From IMG/VR virus record IMGVR_UViG_3300033388_002189, positions 1-22,661 of that record: a DNA stretch of 22,661 bases; one strand, 5' to 3'. This document shows positions 12,932 through 17,313 of this stretch, in pieces. A program made the position numbers and the translations under genes. Position 1 is the stretch's first letter. Each line of letters opens with the position of its first letter. The stretch comes from a virus. The notes under the pieces are model-generated. The model ran no database searches. It saw nothing but the letters and a program-made list of their open reading frames with translations, and was not told the origin of the DNA.

Positions 12932-13141
12932 ATGGCAGTAACAGCAACATTTGCGGCGGGTGCAGAATACGCATTAAACGCAATATCGGAAATCGTAGAA
13001 AAGGGTGGCAAGATAACAGACGCTTCACAGGTAACAGACATACAAGCTATCTCTGTCGCTGCACAATCAGAAACTACCGATGCTCTGTATCAGGCTAAGG
13101 TAGTCGAACAGGCATTTGCAAAGATCGGGACGAGTCTTTAA
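12932..13141 (+). CDS. Small Ala-rich hypothetical protein
   Basis: 69 residues with a strong AAAGGAG site 10 bases before the ATG. Ala/Thr-rich, low in aromatics, with no Cys. The sequence (ALNAISEIVEKGGKITDASQ) suggests two short helices. Position between portal and glycosyltransferase genes, plus good translation signals, suggests a virion or assembly factor such as a small decoration or head-vertex protein. That is inference; the family is not recognised. Stop overlaps the next ATG. Confidence 0.6.
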   Translation: MAVTATFAAGAEYALNAISEIVEKGGKITDASQVTDIQAISVAAQSETTDALYQAKVVEQAFAKIGTSL

Positions 13142-13689
13142 TGAAACTGAGTATCCTGATATGTTCGTTGACCGAAAGGTCAGAGAGTATTAAAAGATTA
13201 CTTGATACCTTAAATTGTCAAGCAACTAAAGATGTTGAAATACTGCTGAATATTGATAATAGGCAACGTACTATTGGTGAAAAAAGACAGTCTTTATTGG
13301 ATAGTGCGATAGGTGAATATATAGTCTTTATTGACGATGATGATGCTGTACCGGAGTATTATGTCGAGGAAATATTAAAGGCTATTGAAAGTAAGCCTGA
13401 TTGCGTAGGCTTCTGGGGCGAAATTGAATCCAGTGTAAACAATGTTAAGCGGCGGGTTCATTATTCCAGAGAGAACATTCAATGGTCTTTAAAGGACGAT
13501 GTCTATCTTCGCAATATTCAGCATGTAACGCCGGTTCGCAGAGAGATATTGAGTACTTTTGAGTTTCCTCATGTAACTGTCAATGAAGATAATTATATGG
13601 CAGGTTGGCTGATGGTTGACAATAAAATTAAAACACAGGTGTTTATTGACAAGGTAATGTATTTTTATAGGGCTAACTATACGATATGA
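13141..13689 (+). CDS. Glycosyltransferase family 2-like protein
   Basis: 182 residues with a GT-A fold signature: N-terminal strand LSILICSLTERSESIKRLL, a second strand VEILLNIDN (about 35-43), and the acidic metal/nucleotide-sugar site YIVFIDDDDAVP with D65-D68. The C-terminal part is shorter than in stand-alone GT2 enzymes (often 230-300 residues), so it may be a minimal phage version. It should transfer a sugar from a nucleotide donor. The acceptor is unknown. First of three overlapping glycosyltransferase-like genes. Confidence 0.8.
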   Translation: MKLSILICSLTERSESIKRLLDTLNCQATKDVEILLNIDNRQRTIGEKRQSLLDSAIGEYIVFIDDDDAVPEYYVEEILKAIESKPDCVGFWGEIESSVNNVKRRVHYSRENIQWSLKDDVYLRNIQHVTPVRREILSTFEFPHVTVNEDNYMAGWLMVDNKIKTQVFIDKVMYFYRANYTI

Positions 13690-14321
13690 AGATAGTTTTA
13701 GCAATACCAACTGGAAACAGAGTTGATAAGATTCGCAAGGTCGTTGAGAAATGGCGTAAGGCTTGTGGTTTCGATATAGCTATTTATACATGGGACGATG
13801 AGACAATCAAGGCCGTCAAAGATAAAGTGGACTATCTCTTTGAGGGTGAATTACAATCATTTGCTAAGAACCAGAATTTAATGGCAAGAAAAATAAAGGA
13901 CTGGGATGTTTTTATATGCGGTGCTGATGATCTTTATCCTGAGAGTGGATTATGGCATATCGAGACTGTATGCGAGCAAAATCCCGACAAGGTGATATGG
14001 GTCAAAGATGGCTTGTTTGACCAACAGCCTACCCACCCGGTTATTACAAAGGGCTGGTACGATAAACATGGTTATATTTTTGATGAACAGTTTTGTCATA
14101 ATTACTGTGATACAGATTTATTTGTAAGGACGGTTCGGGATGGTGAGTTGGTTAAATGCTTCCAGATAAGTTTTGACCATCGCCACTACCTTAAAACCGG
14201 AAAGAAACCAGATGAGATTTATAAATTAGGTGCGTCAAGTTTCGCTGACGACAAAAAAAGGTTTAGGTCTAAATATCCATTGCCAGTTATTAAGTCAGAT
14301 ATTAAGGAAATTTATGTCTAA
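13686..14321 (+). CDS. Glycosyltransferase-like protein (GT-A type)
   Basis: 211 residues. It begins MKIVLAIPTGNRVDKIRKVV, the first beta strand and helix of a GT-A nucleotide-binding fold. The metal-site equivalent is VFICGADDLYPE (A80, D81, D82). YIFDEQFCHNYCDTDLFVR in the middle fits the acceptor-side acidic motif, and FDHRHYL the histidine-containing strand near the end. It overlaps both neighbours by 4 and 8 bases, so the three enzymes are probably made together. Substrate unknown. Confidence 0.75.
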   Translation: MKIVLAIPTGNRVDKIRKVVEKWRKACGFDIAIYTWDDETIKAVKDKVDYLFEGELQSFAKNQNLMARKIKDWDVFICGADDLYPESGLWHIETVCEQNPDKVIWVKDGLFDQQPTHPVITKGWYDKHGYIFDEQFCHNYCDTDLFVRTVRDGELVKCFQISFDHRHYLKTGKKPDEIYKLGASSFADDKKRFRSKYPLPVIKSDIKEIYV

Positions 14322-14964
14322 GAAGCGAACAATAAGACGCAGGAATACGCAGTTATCAGCTAATGTGCTGATAGGTATGCCTGTTCCCCAGAGTAAGAAC
14401 GTCAATCATGAAGCGGCTATGTTCTGTACTAAGGCGGTACAAAGGGGTATGGCGATAAGAACTATCTATTCCCGCACTTCTGAGGACGGTAGGAACGATA
14501 TTATAGATTTTTTCTTGAGACATAAGGAGTTTTCGCATTTATTCTTTCTTGATGCCGACACTGCACCGCCTGACTATGCGATTGAGAAATTGTTGAGTTT
14601 GAATAAACCGGTGATTGCTGGTCTTACGCCGATATATCGTCAGTCAAATAAAAAATGGCAGTGGTCGGCGGTAGTAAAAGACGGTGATAAATTGAAAAAA
14701 ATTAAGATTGACGAAAAGCCAAACAAACCTTTCAAGGCAGAGCGTGTTGGTGGTACTACTATTTTGATTAAAAGGTGTGTTTTAGAGAAGATTAAACCGC
14801 CTTATCAGGTAACAGTAAGAGATGACCTCGGCAAGGTTACACTGAGCGAGGATTTTTACTTCACAGATAAGATAAAAGCCGCGGGATTCGATTTATGGGT
14901 TGATCCGTCAATAGTTTGTAAGCATTTCCATACAGTAGATTTATTGGAGATGGCGAGAATATGA
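14314..14964 (+). CDS. Glycosyltransferase-like protein (GT-A, DxD)
   Basis: 217 residues from the ATG at 14314, with AAGGA upstream; an upstream in-frame GTG at 14230 would overlap the previous gene by 92 bases and is rejected. FFLDADTAPP gives the DxD motif (D80, D82). SEDFYFTDKIKAAGFDLWVD (E179, D180) is the ED-containing acceptor motif. VCKHFHT supplies the late metal-binding His. The N-terminus is strongly basic (KKRTIRRRN). Third member of the glycosyltransferase cassette. It could modify virion proteins or host surface glycans; sequence does not decide. Confidence 0.8.
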   Translation: MSKKRTIRRRNTQLSANVLIGMPVPQSKNVNHEAAMFCTKAVQRGMAIRTIYSRTSEDGRNDIIDFFLRHKEFSHLFFLDADTAPPDYAIEKLLSLNKPVIAGLTPIYRQSNKKWQWSAVVKDGDKLKKIKIDEKPNKPFKAERVGGTTILIKRCVLEKIKPPYQVTVRDDLGKVTLSEDFYFTDKIKAAGFDLWVDPSIVCKHFHTVDLLEMARI

Positions 14965-15134: not shown

Positions 15135-15180
15135 CTCTTTTTAATAACTGAATAATTATTAGGGACAATCTGAAAAACAG

Positions 15181-15227
15181 AAGCCCTGTTTTGTGTGCAA
15201 TTAAGCGCATAGAGCAGGGCTTTTTTT
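15181..15227 (+). terminator. Strong intrinsic terminator
   Basis: AAGCCCTG (15181-15188) pairs with CAGGGCTT (15215-15222). Inside it TGTGC and GCGCA can pair (one G-U) around the loop AATTAA. Seven T's at 15221-15227 follow. It separates the terminase-portal-glycosyltransferase block from the capsid block. Confidence 0.85.
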
Positions 15228-15230
15228 ATT

Positions 15231-15248
15231 GCCTCTTGGCCAAGAGGC
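15231..15248. repeat. Perfect 18-bp palindrome
   Basis: GCCTCTTGGCCAAGAGGC is its own reverse complement and begins 4 bases after the terminator's T-run. With no loop it is better as a double-stranded protein site (operator-like) than as an RNA hairpin. Confidence 0.7.
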
Positions 15249-15256
15249 GGGCTTTC

Positions 15257-15331
15257 CGGTGAGCTGTATCACCGTTGTTTCGGCAAACTGCAAGCCGCAA
15301 ATTGCAGGAATCGCACTAAGTGACTCGGTGC
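15257..15331 (+). promoter_or_regulatory. Structured leader upstream of the scaffold gene, possible pseudoknot RNA
   Basis: CGGTGA (15257-15262) pairs with TCACCG (15269-15274). Next, CGGC (15281-15284) pairs with GCCG (15294-15297), and CTGCAA in its loop (15288-15293) pairs with TTGCAG (15302-15307). The linkers are AAA, none and CAAA, which satisfy H-type pseudoknot geometry. GCAC (15313-15316) can pair with GTGC (15328-15331). The segment is GC-richer than its flanks. No good promoter is visible in it. The scaffold ribosome site follows at 15340. Confidence 0.45.
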
Positions 15332-15353
15332 AGTAATGAAAAGGAGTAAAATT

Positions 15354-16118
15354 ATGGCTGTTAATGTAGATGAATTTGTAGACGAAGGTATGAAAGAGGC
15401 AGGAATAGAAACTGAGGTTACAGAGACCGAAGAGCCGGAAGTGAAAGAACCGGAAACAAAGGTCGAAGATACTACAGAGGAAACTCCGTCTGTTATGGAA
15501 AGTTTTTTAGATAGTGAGCCAGAAAAAAAGGCAGCTGAAAAAGAACCAACCATGGTACCAGTACATGTACTACAAGAAGAACGCCAGAGAAGAAGAGACG
15601 CAGAGGAAAAACTGAAAGGATTCTCTCAATCCCCTCCGGACGGGGCAAAGTTCGCAGTAGATGAGATTCTTGCAGGTGATGAGGATGATCTTTTGACAAG
15701 AGGCGAGGTTAAAAAACTCGTTTCAAGTCTGCAAAGAGCAAATCCCCAGAAATCCAATGCTGATATTGTAGAGCAGGTCAAGAGCATTATCGAACAAGAT
15801 AGGATGGCTTCACAGCTTCAACAGACAAGGCAGCTTGCTATTGCTTCTGAGAAAGAAGCTAAAGAGGCCAATGCCGACTTTGAAAAGGTAGTGAATACCG
15901 CAAAAAATCTTGGTCTGATAAATGACGTTGATCGCAAAAAGGCGTTTAGCTCAGCTAAACCGGCTCAGGTACTCTATGATATATCAAAAGCGAAACTCGA
16001 TGAGATTCGTTCTACTCTTGGTGTTTCAACTCCTACAGGAAAGCCAAAAAAAGAAGACAACAACAATGTTCCTTCGGACGATGACATTTTCAATGAGGTG
16101 TTTAGCTCCGAGGAGTAA
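15354..16118 (+). CDS. Capsid scaffolding protein
   Basis: 254 residues from the ATG at 15354, preceded 7 bases upstream by AAAGGAG; an in-frame ATG at 15336 lies before that site and is not used. The N-terminus is highly acidic (VTETEEPEVKEPETKVEDTT), the middle is charged helix with coiled-coil character (VLQEERQRRRDAEEKL, QLAIASEKEAKEANADFEKV), and the C-terminus is acidic (PSDDDIFNEVFSSEE). Composition and position directly before the coat gene match phage scaffolds, which template the procapsid and then leave. Length is normal. Confidence 0.82.
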   Translation: MAVNVDEFVDEGMKEAGIETEVTETEEPEVKEPETKVEDTTEETPSVMESFLDSEPEKKAAEKEPTMVPVHVLQEERQRRRDAEEKLKGFSQSPPDGAKFAVDEILAGDEDDLLTRGEVKKLVSSLQRANPQKSNADIVEQVKSIIEQDRMASQLQQTRQLAIASEKEAKEANADFEKVVNTAKNLGLINDVDRKKAFSSAKPAQVLYDISKAKLDEIRSTLGVSTPTGKPKKEDNNNVPSDDDIFNEVFSSEE

Positions 16119-16131
16119 GGAGTTTTAAGAA

Positions 16132-17313
16132 ATGGCAAATACTACTTTTTTGAGAGATTCGTCTAATACGAATTTCATTCCACAGAAATGGTCAGCGAAG
16201 TTGTTCAAACATGCGTTTGCAAACAACCCACTGGCTCCGTATATGGGTACCGGAAGTGATTCTGTTATCCAGATACAAAAAGATTTTCTAAAAGACAAAG
16301 GCGATAAGATGATTGTTGGTCTTCGTGCCCTGCTCGATGACAACGGTGAGACCGACAACGAGACTTATGAGGGTAACGAAGAAGCTCTGGTTTTCCACGA
16401 TATGAATTACCAGATTCATGAAAGAGGTCATTCTGTTCGCAAGGCCGGTAATATGACCGACCAGAGTTCAATCTTTAACCTCAGAAACGAGGCTAAACTG
16501 GCTCTTGGTGAGTGGTCTGCGATGAAACAGGCTTCCGATCTCATCACTGCCTTGTCAGGTCTGGCTAATGTGAGTTTCCCAGGCCATAGAACTGGTGAAC
16601 TTGAGACCAGTACAACTGGTAATTCTATCGCAACGATTGACCAAACGGCTATCGGTACGAAGAGTGCTACTTCTTTGAGGTACTTCTTCGGTGGCCAAAC
16701 AGCGGGTGGTACGCTTGAGCGTGTTGCTAACGATGCGGCAATCGACTCTTCTACTGACAACCTGTTTGGTACAAAGGTTATCTCCGCGGTCAAGCTGATG
16801 GCAGAAACCACCTTTAATACCTCAGGTGAGTTCCTGAGTCCTATCAGACCGGTTATGGTAGATGGCGAGAGGCTTTACCTGATGTTCATCAGTCCATATC
16901 AGGCAAAGAGTCTGAAAAACGAGACTGCATGGATTCAGGCTCAAAGAGATGCCGGTATCAGGGGTAAGAAGAACGCCCTGTTTACAGGTGCTTTGGGTAT
17001 CTGGGACGGCGTTGTTATCAAGGAAACACCTTGGTGTCATGTTCGTTACGGTATTAACGGTACAGCGAGAACAGAGTTCTTCGATTCTACAGGCGATGTC
17101 TGTGCTTCGGGTATCTATGTTGCTCGTGGTTTGTTCTGCGGTGCTCAAGCTGCGGTTATGGGTTACGGTAAAATGCCGTCATGGGTCGAAGAAGATTTTG
17201 ACTACAAGACTAAACTCGGTGTTCACACCGATATGATCTATGGTGTCAAAAAGACTGTTTTCAACTCCGTTGATTTCGGCTGTATTACTGTTGATACTGC
17301 GGTGAATTTGTAG
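16132..17313 (+). CDS. Major capsid protein, N4-gp56 family
   Basis: 393 residues. Family hallmarks are LFKHAFANNPLAPYMGTGSD (about 24-43), GDKMIVGLRALL (about 57-68) and YEGNEEAL (79-86), followed by IHERGHSVRKAGNMTDQSS. These match the N4-gp56 (DUF4043) coat family. Coat subunits of this HK97-like fold build the icosahedral head. AAGGAG lies 9 bases upstream of the ATG. GC content is higher than in the accessory block (34 G/C in 16681-16740), as expected of a strongly expressed gene. A strong hairpin terminator follows directly. Confidence 0.9.
   Translation: MANTTFLRDSSNTNFIPQKWSAKLFKHAFANNPLAPYMGTGSDSVIQIQKDFLKDKGDKMIVGLRALLDDNGETDNETYEGNEEALVFHDMNYQIHERGHSVRKAGNMTDQSSIFNLRNEAKLALGEWSAMKQASDLITALSGLANVSFPGHRTGELETSTTGNSIATIDQTAIGTKSATSLRYFFGGQTAGGTLERVANDAAIDSSTDNLFGTKVISAVKLMAETTFNTSGEFLSPIRPVMVDGERLYLMFISPYQAKSLKNETAWIQAQRDAGIRGKKNALFTGALGIWDGVVIKETPWCHVRYGINGTARTEFFDSTGDVCASGIYVARGLFCGAQAAVMGYGKMPSWVEEDFDYKTKLGVHTDMIYGVKKTVFNSVDFGCITVDTAVNL

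Follow-up and report, generated by a model that had tools for sequence, protein, structure and literature searches.

The operator of phage T4 gene 32 consists of a pseudoknot of ~28 nt which is followed by a component of >40 nt containing the ribosome-binding site (PMC535899). In STAXI RNA (RF01728) a pseudoknot is repeated in tandem two or usually three times (PMC2864571). Consecutive pseudoknots are also present in an untranslated region of tobacco mosaic virus; this upstream pseudoknot domain supports translation and RNA accumulation (PMC4683447). For tandem pseudoknots in phages no report was found in the open-access literature. Phages need hundreds of capsid and scaffold subunits per virion, yet few portals, and the genes often reside in one operon. 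A shared RNA device placed before exactly the scaffold and capsid genes would help to explain how such dosages are set. Rfam lacks such a class of RNA, which the device would define, and portable leaders for adjusting gene expression could be derived from it.

The DNA analysed is a virus record of 22,661 bases; the whole stretch is referred to as the window. The initial annotation had proposed that the mRNA of the coat module starts with a regulatory RNA, and had pointed to a palindrome, a 6-bp hairpin and interleaved pairs. All these repeats are present at their given places. We define the leader as the interval from an intrinsic terminator to the scaffold start codon at 15354. The features are as follows.

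15179-15224 or 15179-15228, plus strand: intrinsic terminator with a bulged stem, AGCCCTG..CAGGGCT, and a T tract; it adjoins the 5' end of the leader.
15231-15248, no strand assigned: perfect 18-bp palindrome GCCTCTTGGCCAAGAGGC, specific to the window and outside the conserved element.
15250-15274, plus strand: unit 1, a predicted hairpin CGGTGA(GCTGTA)TCACCG (stem 15257-15274) with compensatory changes in the relative L255.
15281-15307, plus strand: unit 2, a predicted H-type pseudoknot CGGC-AAA-CTGCAA-GCCG-CAAA-TTGCAG, from interleaved pairs.
15313-15331, plus strand: unit 3, a predicted hairpin GCACT(AAGTGACTC)GGTGC, found by RNAalifold with L255.
15340-15346, plus strand: Shine-Dalgarno motif AAAGGAG, read from the sequence and kept in L255.
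15354-16118, plus strand: open reading frame of 254 aa in scaffold position, between the portal and major capsid genes.
16132-17313, plus strand: major capsid protein (phrog_334, E 5.5e-70; Pfam Phage_capsid_3).

Further genes of the window encode a terminase (phrog_2) and a portal (phrog_156). The open reading frame 15354-16118 matched no Pfam or PHROG family and is named a putative scaffold gene by its position only; the Shine-Dalgarno motif of its start codon is rated good. No sigma-70-type promoter was found near the leader. The interval between portal and scaffold (13141-14964) holds three genes which are glycosyltransferase-like or of unknown function, and similar genes are located there in relatives.

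Judged by its sequence the region is a 5' leader of the scaffold/capsid mRNA, composed of a hairpin with a possible pseudoknot, an H-type pseudoknot, a second hairpin and the Shine-Dalgarno motif. Unit 2 is the only clear pseudoknot in the window. It has the two interleaved helices and the short or absent second loop by which the H-type class is recognised: S1 is formed by 15281-15284 and 15294-15297 (4 bp, CGGC/GCCG), S2 by 15288-15293 and 15302-15307 (6 bp, CTGCAA/TTGCAG). Loop L1 is AAA (15285-15287), L2 has zero length and L3 is CAAA (15298-15301). The unit comprises 27 nt, extends from 73 to 47 nt before the start, and ends about 46-47 nt before codon 15354. Its formation is a structural potential. 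Unit 1 is possibly an H-type pseudoknot as well, in which GGC (15250-15252) would pair with GCT (15263-15265).

How does this leader compare with the known systems? As in the gene 32 operators of T4 and RB69 we deal with a phage mRNA leader, an H-type pseudoknot of ~28 nt at a distance of some 40-45 nt from the start codon, and a protein which is needed stoichiometrically (PMC535899). The location of unit 2 agrees with the range of about 40-70 nt before the start which marks the T4 gene 32 type. The unstructured tract rich in UUAAA or UAAA of that type is absent; the hairpin 15313-15331 is located there and no UUAAA repeats were seen. Whereas T4 and RB69 gene 32 have a single pseudoknot plus an unstructured UUAAA-rich tract, here two to four units or hairpins stand in a row, the genes are capsid genes, and there is neither a shared sequence nor a known ligand protein. 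These comparisons bear on a translational operator, the best rival to the mechanism which we prefer below. Excess scaffold, coat or another phage protein would bind the pseudoknots and spread to, or block, the ribosome-binding site, like gp32 on the T4 gene 32 mRNA. Unit 2 is near the T4 pseudoknot in size and position (PMC535899). The space between unit 2 and the Shine-Dalgarno motif, however, often contains another hairpin instead of an open tract for spreading. We regard the operator as a serious, albeit rather unlikely, explanation.

STAXI RNA likewise has its pseudoknots in tandem; it differs from the capsid leaders in being enterobacterial, in its vicinity to genes of DNA handling and in its UUCG tetraloops. 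Membership was discarded: at E <= 10 no match was found in the window or in 28 of 29 other records, and the three weak matches, all in one bacterial genome, are not in leaders. The tobacco mosaic virus domain shares the consecutive pseudoknots in an untranslated region; unlike the capsid leaders it is the 3' end of the genome of a plant RNA virus, and homology is not claimed.

Rfam 15 returned zero matches at the gathering score for the window and 16 relatives. Lax Rfam searches of three leaders yielded a single weak match, M23 RNA (RF03006) at full length in L255. With 20.7 bits this is half of the gathering score of 41.2, the window had no match, and M23 matches in other records are mostly outside leaders; membership was thus rejected. 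The M23 consensus, CGGC-gu-GCCGCc-GCCG-GAAcag-GCGGC, permits a reading as the same H-type pseudoknot, with a hairpin and the Shine-Dalgarno-like GGAAAGG after it. M23 RNA may be a narrow known relative of the leader class. Mu-gpT-DE (RF03012) was rejected too, with nothing above its gathering score of 49 in 29 records and no match in the window.

Some riboswitches are formed by small H-type pseudoknots, and a ligand sensor was among the functions initially considered for this RNA. A small-molecule riboswitch is nevertheless very improbable. No Rfam riboswitch was matched, a leader has two to four units, the genes are structural, and stems and loops vary freely, without a conserved sequence pocket.

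Is the pseudoknot of the window more than chance? First-order shuffles of the whole 22.7-kb window contain about 0-6 pseudoknots of the size of unit 2 each (once 16). Thus, a comparable pseudoknot can arise somewhere in a shuffled window, and unit 2 alone is modest, not decisive, evidence. At its location, however, it is unusual: a pseudoknot whose end falls 34-54 nt before the scaffold start of the window has p = 0.0075, and a chain of two pseudoknots in 15249-15353 has p = 0.003 (1000 shuffles). Over both strands of the window, 15201-15310 ranks first as a pseudoknot array; its stacking energy is -52.6 kcal/mol, and the separate stretch which ranks second has -30.3 kcal/mol. The nested fold of the leader is ordinary (z = -0.6); the method is blind to pseudoknots, so this result is neutral.

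About 300 loci were gathered by searches with capsid and portal protein alignments. Single-sequence protein searches of viral contigs and a DNA similarity search among phages gave no match, and the exact sequence of unit 2 does not recur in any other viral contig. Among the relatives whose leader is complete, L255 is the nearest; its capsid protein is 57% identical in the C-terminal part. Two contigs with closer capsid proteins (L253 and L254, 88% and 67% over the C-terminal part) end before the leader and were left out.

The leaders of the window and L255 can be aligned. Unit 2 is identical except for one loop base. The hairpin stem of unit 1 displays two double compensatory changes, G-C to A-U and U-A to C-G. 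Its candidate crossing stem changes from GGC/GCU in the window to GGU/ACC in L255, in a register which was set by hand and is gapped in the automatic alignment. Unit 3 reads GCACC(AGGTTGCTC)GGTGC in L255; GCAC/GUGC is kept and a U-G pair has become C-G. From both sequences RNAalifold recovered the three nested stems. It further proposes a pairing between the terminator and the Shine-Dalgarno region: GCTTTTTT (15219-15228) could pair with AAAAGGAGT (15338-15347), therefore the ribosome-binding site might be hidden in read-through transcripts.

The palindrome, the sole perfect one of at least 16 bp in the window, is absent from the L255 leader; it is not conserved and lies outside the conserved element. 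Covariation in homologous leaders, the check initially suggested for this RNA, was found: structure is kept while the letters change. The structured element at the start of the coat-module mRNA is thereby strongly supported by homologous leaders, whereas the ligand sensor is the part of that proposal which is unlikely.

A similar picture emerges in phages with a capsid identity of only 30-57%, which have pseudoknots at the same place with different letters. Examples from the group with about 30-47% identity are CCCC-AAA-CTGCCA-GGGG-TTAGT-TGGCAG in L076, ACCC-ATA-CTGTCA-GGGT-G-TGACAG in L334, a Planctomycetota MAG contig, CTCC-A-TCGGCG-GGAG-CATA-CGCCGA in L181, and CGCC-A-GCCACA-GGCG-CAT-TGTGGC in Microcystis phage Mae-JY35. 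Many relatives have three or four pseudoknots in a row: L203 and Mae-JY35 have three, L199 and phage Pam5 four. Mae-JY35 and Pam5, a Pseudanabaena phage, are cultured carriers which make the leader class testable. Genes closely related to the capsid gene also occur in three Planctomycetota MAG contigs, L333-L335, which hints at the host of the phage group.

Because the caller seeks pairing, its counts were compared with those from shuffles, from other genes and topologies, and from the opposite strand. With respect to position, 23 of the 32 closest loci reached p <= 0.05 for a pseudoknot ending 34-54 nt upstream of the scaffold start; combining 30 non-redundant loci by Fisher's method gives p = 2.8e-19, or 6e-17 when the window and L255 are left out. 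With respect to genes, the minimum p of the array statistic was attained at 26% of the scaffold starts and 30% of the capsid starts, compared to 3.4% and 6.5% at the starts of upstream and downstream genes (null about 2.4%). Arrays precede scaffold and/or major capsid genes, not portal or terminase genes. Altogether 99 of 257 leaders of capsid genes are significant at p <= 0.05; among the 185 scaffold leaders there are 60, among the 72 capsid leaders 39. The arrays mostly have 2-4 units with a median spacing of 28 nt, and their third loops are A-rich.

Topology and strand were compared next. As L2 increases from 0 to 8 nt, 34, 31, 19, 10, 11, 7, 7, 4 and 3 pseudoknots are found in 30 close leaders vs. 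3-4 in shuffles, with the counts at L2 = 1 partly repeating those at L2 = 0. At L2 = 0 the excess is about nine-fold (34 vs. 3.8), and the enrichment is specific to L2 of 0-1. In capsid leaders the counts fall in the same way with growing L2. A symmetric search restricted to Watson-Crick pairs yielded 53 pseudoknots where 5.5 were expected; in 42 of them L1 is the shorter loop and L3 the longer one, and in 6 it is the reverse. A shorter L1 is the geometry required for an RNA pseudoknot on the coding strand. Thus, the loop geometry fits the mRNA strand. The shuffles are first-order Markov resamplings, the loci are related by descent, starts were picked by a Shine-Dalgarno rule and scaffold genes called by position. 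None of these sampling caveats, the overlap of L2 = 1 with L2 = 0 included, explains the contrasts of topology and strand.

Compensatory changes, which the H-type class should display, are present in the close pairs: the true register has 16 double compensatory cells, the slid registers have 0, 0, 1, 1, 1 and 0. Each pair contributes cells from both of its members, so the events are fewer than 16. Unit 2 itself is unchanged between the window and L255. Across all alignable pairs the fraction of kept pairs is 0.30 vs. 0.21-0.28 and double changes number 29 vs. 0-6, a mapping diluted by spurious pseudoknot calls within coding sequence. A MAFFT alignment of 18 diverged leaders was unusable, hence pair counts were restricted to close pairs.

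These data leave little room for chance inverted repeats or a DNA-level site, for which the pseudoknots of shuffled windows and the palindrome, resembling a DNA site, might have spoken. The tests of position, topology and strand across relatives argue against it, as do the G-U pairs (18 of 233) and the unconserved palindrome; we consider it least probable of all. One can conclude with great confidence that the structural potential is real, that it is conserved while the letters change, and that it is tied to the mRNA strand and to these genes. The leader is a member of a class in which tandem pseudoknots stand before the scaffold gene, the major capsid gene or both, and this class extends over a broad group of phages. 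Structured leaders of phage mRNAs are a known kind; the tandem-pseudoknot form, with its tie to capsid genes, is apparently undescribed, and the row of pseudoknots is probably an unrecognised RNA device which controls the amount of capsid protein.

How might the array act? Units which share a leader resemble each other hardly more than units from different phages do; we therefore infer that shape matters more than sequence. A phage-specific S1/L3 signature common to the units of one leader was considered and not borne out. There is a weak preference for S1 starting with CG and for A-rich third loops. In 11 of the 32 closest loci a terminator ends 94-125 nt before the scaffold start, vs. 5 of 320 random positions. 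Between the end of an array and the start there are 12-50 nt, so that the Shine-Dalgarno motif stays free.

Our preferred mechanism, advanced tentatively, is a 5' barrier which acts by its shape and stabilises or insulates the capsid mRNA. It is favoured because the array directly follows a terminator in about a third of the close relatives, and it is in line with the repetition of units within a leader and with the free Shine-Dalgarno motif. The array would form a rigid barrier at the 5' side of the phage mRNA for which demand is highest. Positioned just after the terminator and its AU-rich tract, it would shield the downstream transcript, whether produced by read-through plus cleavage or initiated near the T tract, from decay that depends on the 5' end. 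It would also keep the ribosome-binding site clear of upstream structure. As a result, the output of capsid protein would be raised or stabilised relative to portal and terminase. Against the barrier stand that no upstream terminator was seen in most relatives and that the window has only one clear pseudoknot, unit 2. Further, the preference for CG and A-rich loops could signify a recognised sequence instead of a mechanical role.

The same observations bear on the operator. Arrays precede exactly those proteins which self-assemble, and post-transcriptional autoregulation of the P22 scaffold is known. On the other side, the units within a leader have no clear common sequence signature, and P22 has a 13-nt gap before its scaffold gene without an array. 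P22 scaffold and coat and T7 genes 9 and 10 showed no comparable arrays, the P22 scaffold gene having one weak pseudoknot (p 0.04); the feature is therefore not general to phages.

That the array often follows a terminator would also suit a put-type RNA antiterminator, in which the nascent array would modify RNA polymerase and thereby enable it to pass terminators further along the structural operon. Put RNAs are likewise short tandem stem-loops. This is improbable: many of these phages have separate scaffold and capsid arrays, which antitermination does not need, and there is no conserved sequence of the put-site kind.

Returning to the 5' barrier, a broader reading is possible, if somewhat doubtful. 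Tandem H-type arrays might be a widespread, undescribed class of leaders which are recognised by shape and set the output of capsid cistrons by blocking 5'-end decay. They would be to bacterial viruses what exonuclease-resistant and tandem-pseudoknot RNAs are to the RNA viruses of eukaryotes.

Some further observations concern the major capsid genes and other groups of carriers. Arrays of 3-4 pseudoknots ~27 nt apart occupy the gap between scaffold and major capsid genes in L023, L031, L033, L036, L042, L077, L150 and others, with the recurring form CGNN..NNCG-U(U/C/A)AA; in the window this gap has only 13 nt. A strongly conserved unit, CGTGCCGCC(G/A)ACGNTAAGGGCG, is located in the scaffold leaders of L020, L232, L234, L301, L302, L337 and L355, which are phages of rumen and Selenomonadaceae contigs. 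One stem and the loops of this unit are kept in sequence and the other stem changes in pairs. Finally, the distant relative Klebsiella phage vB_KpnP_ZX1 (L008:2648-2857) has a gene annotated as CsrA-like between its scaffold and major capsid genes, a further hint at post-transcriptional control of capsid genes.
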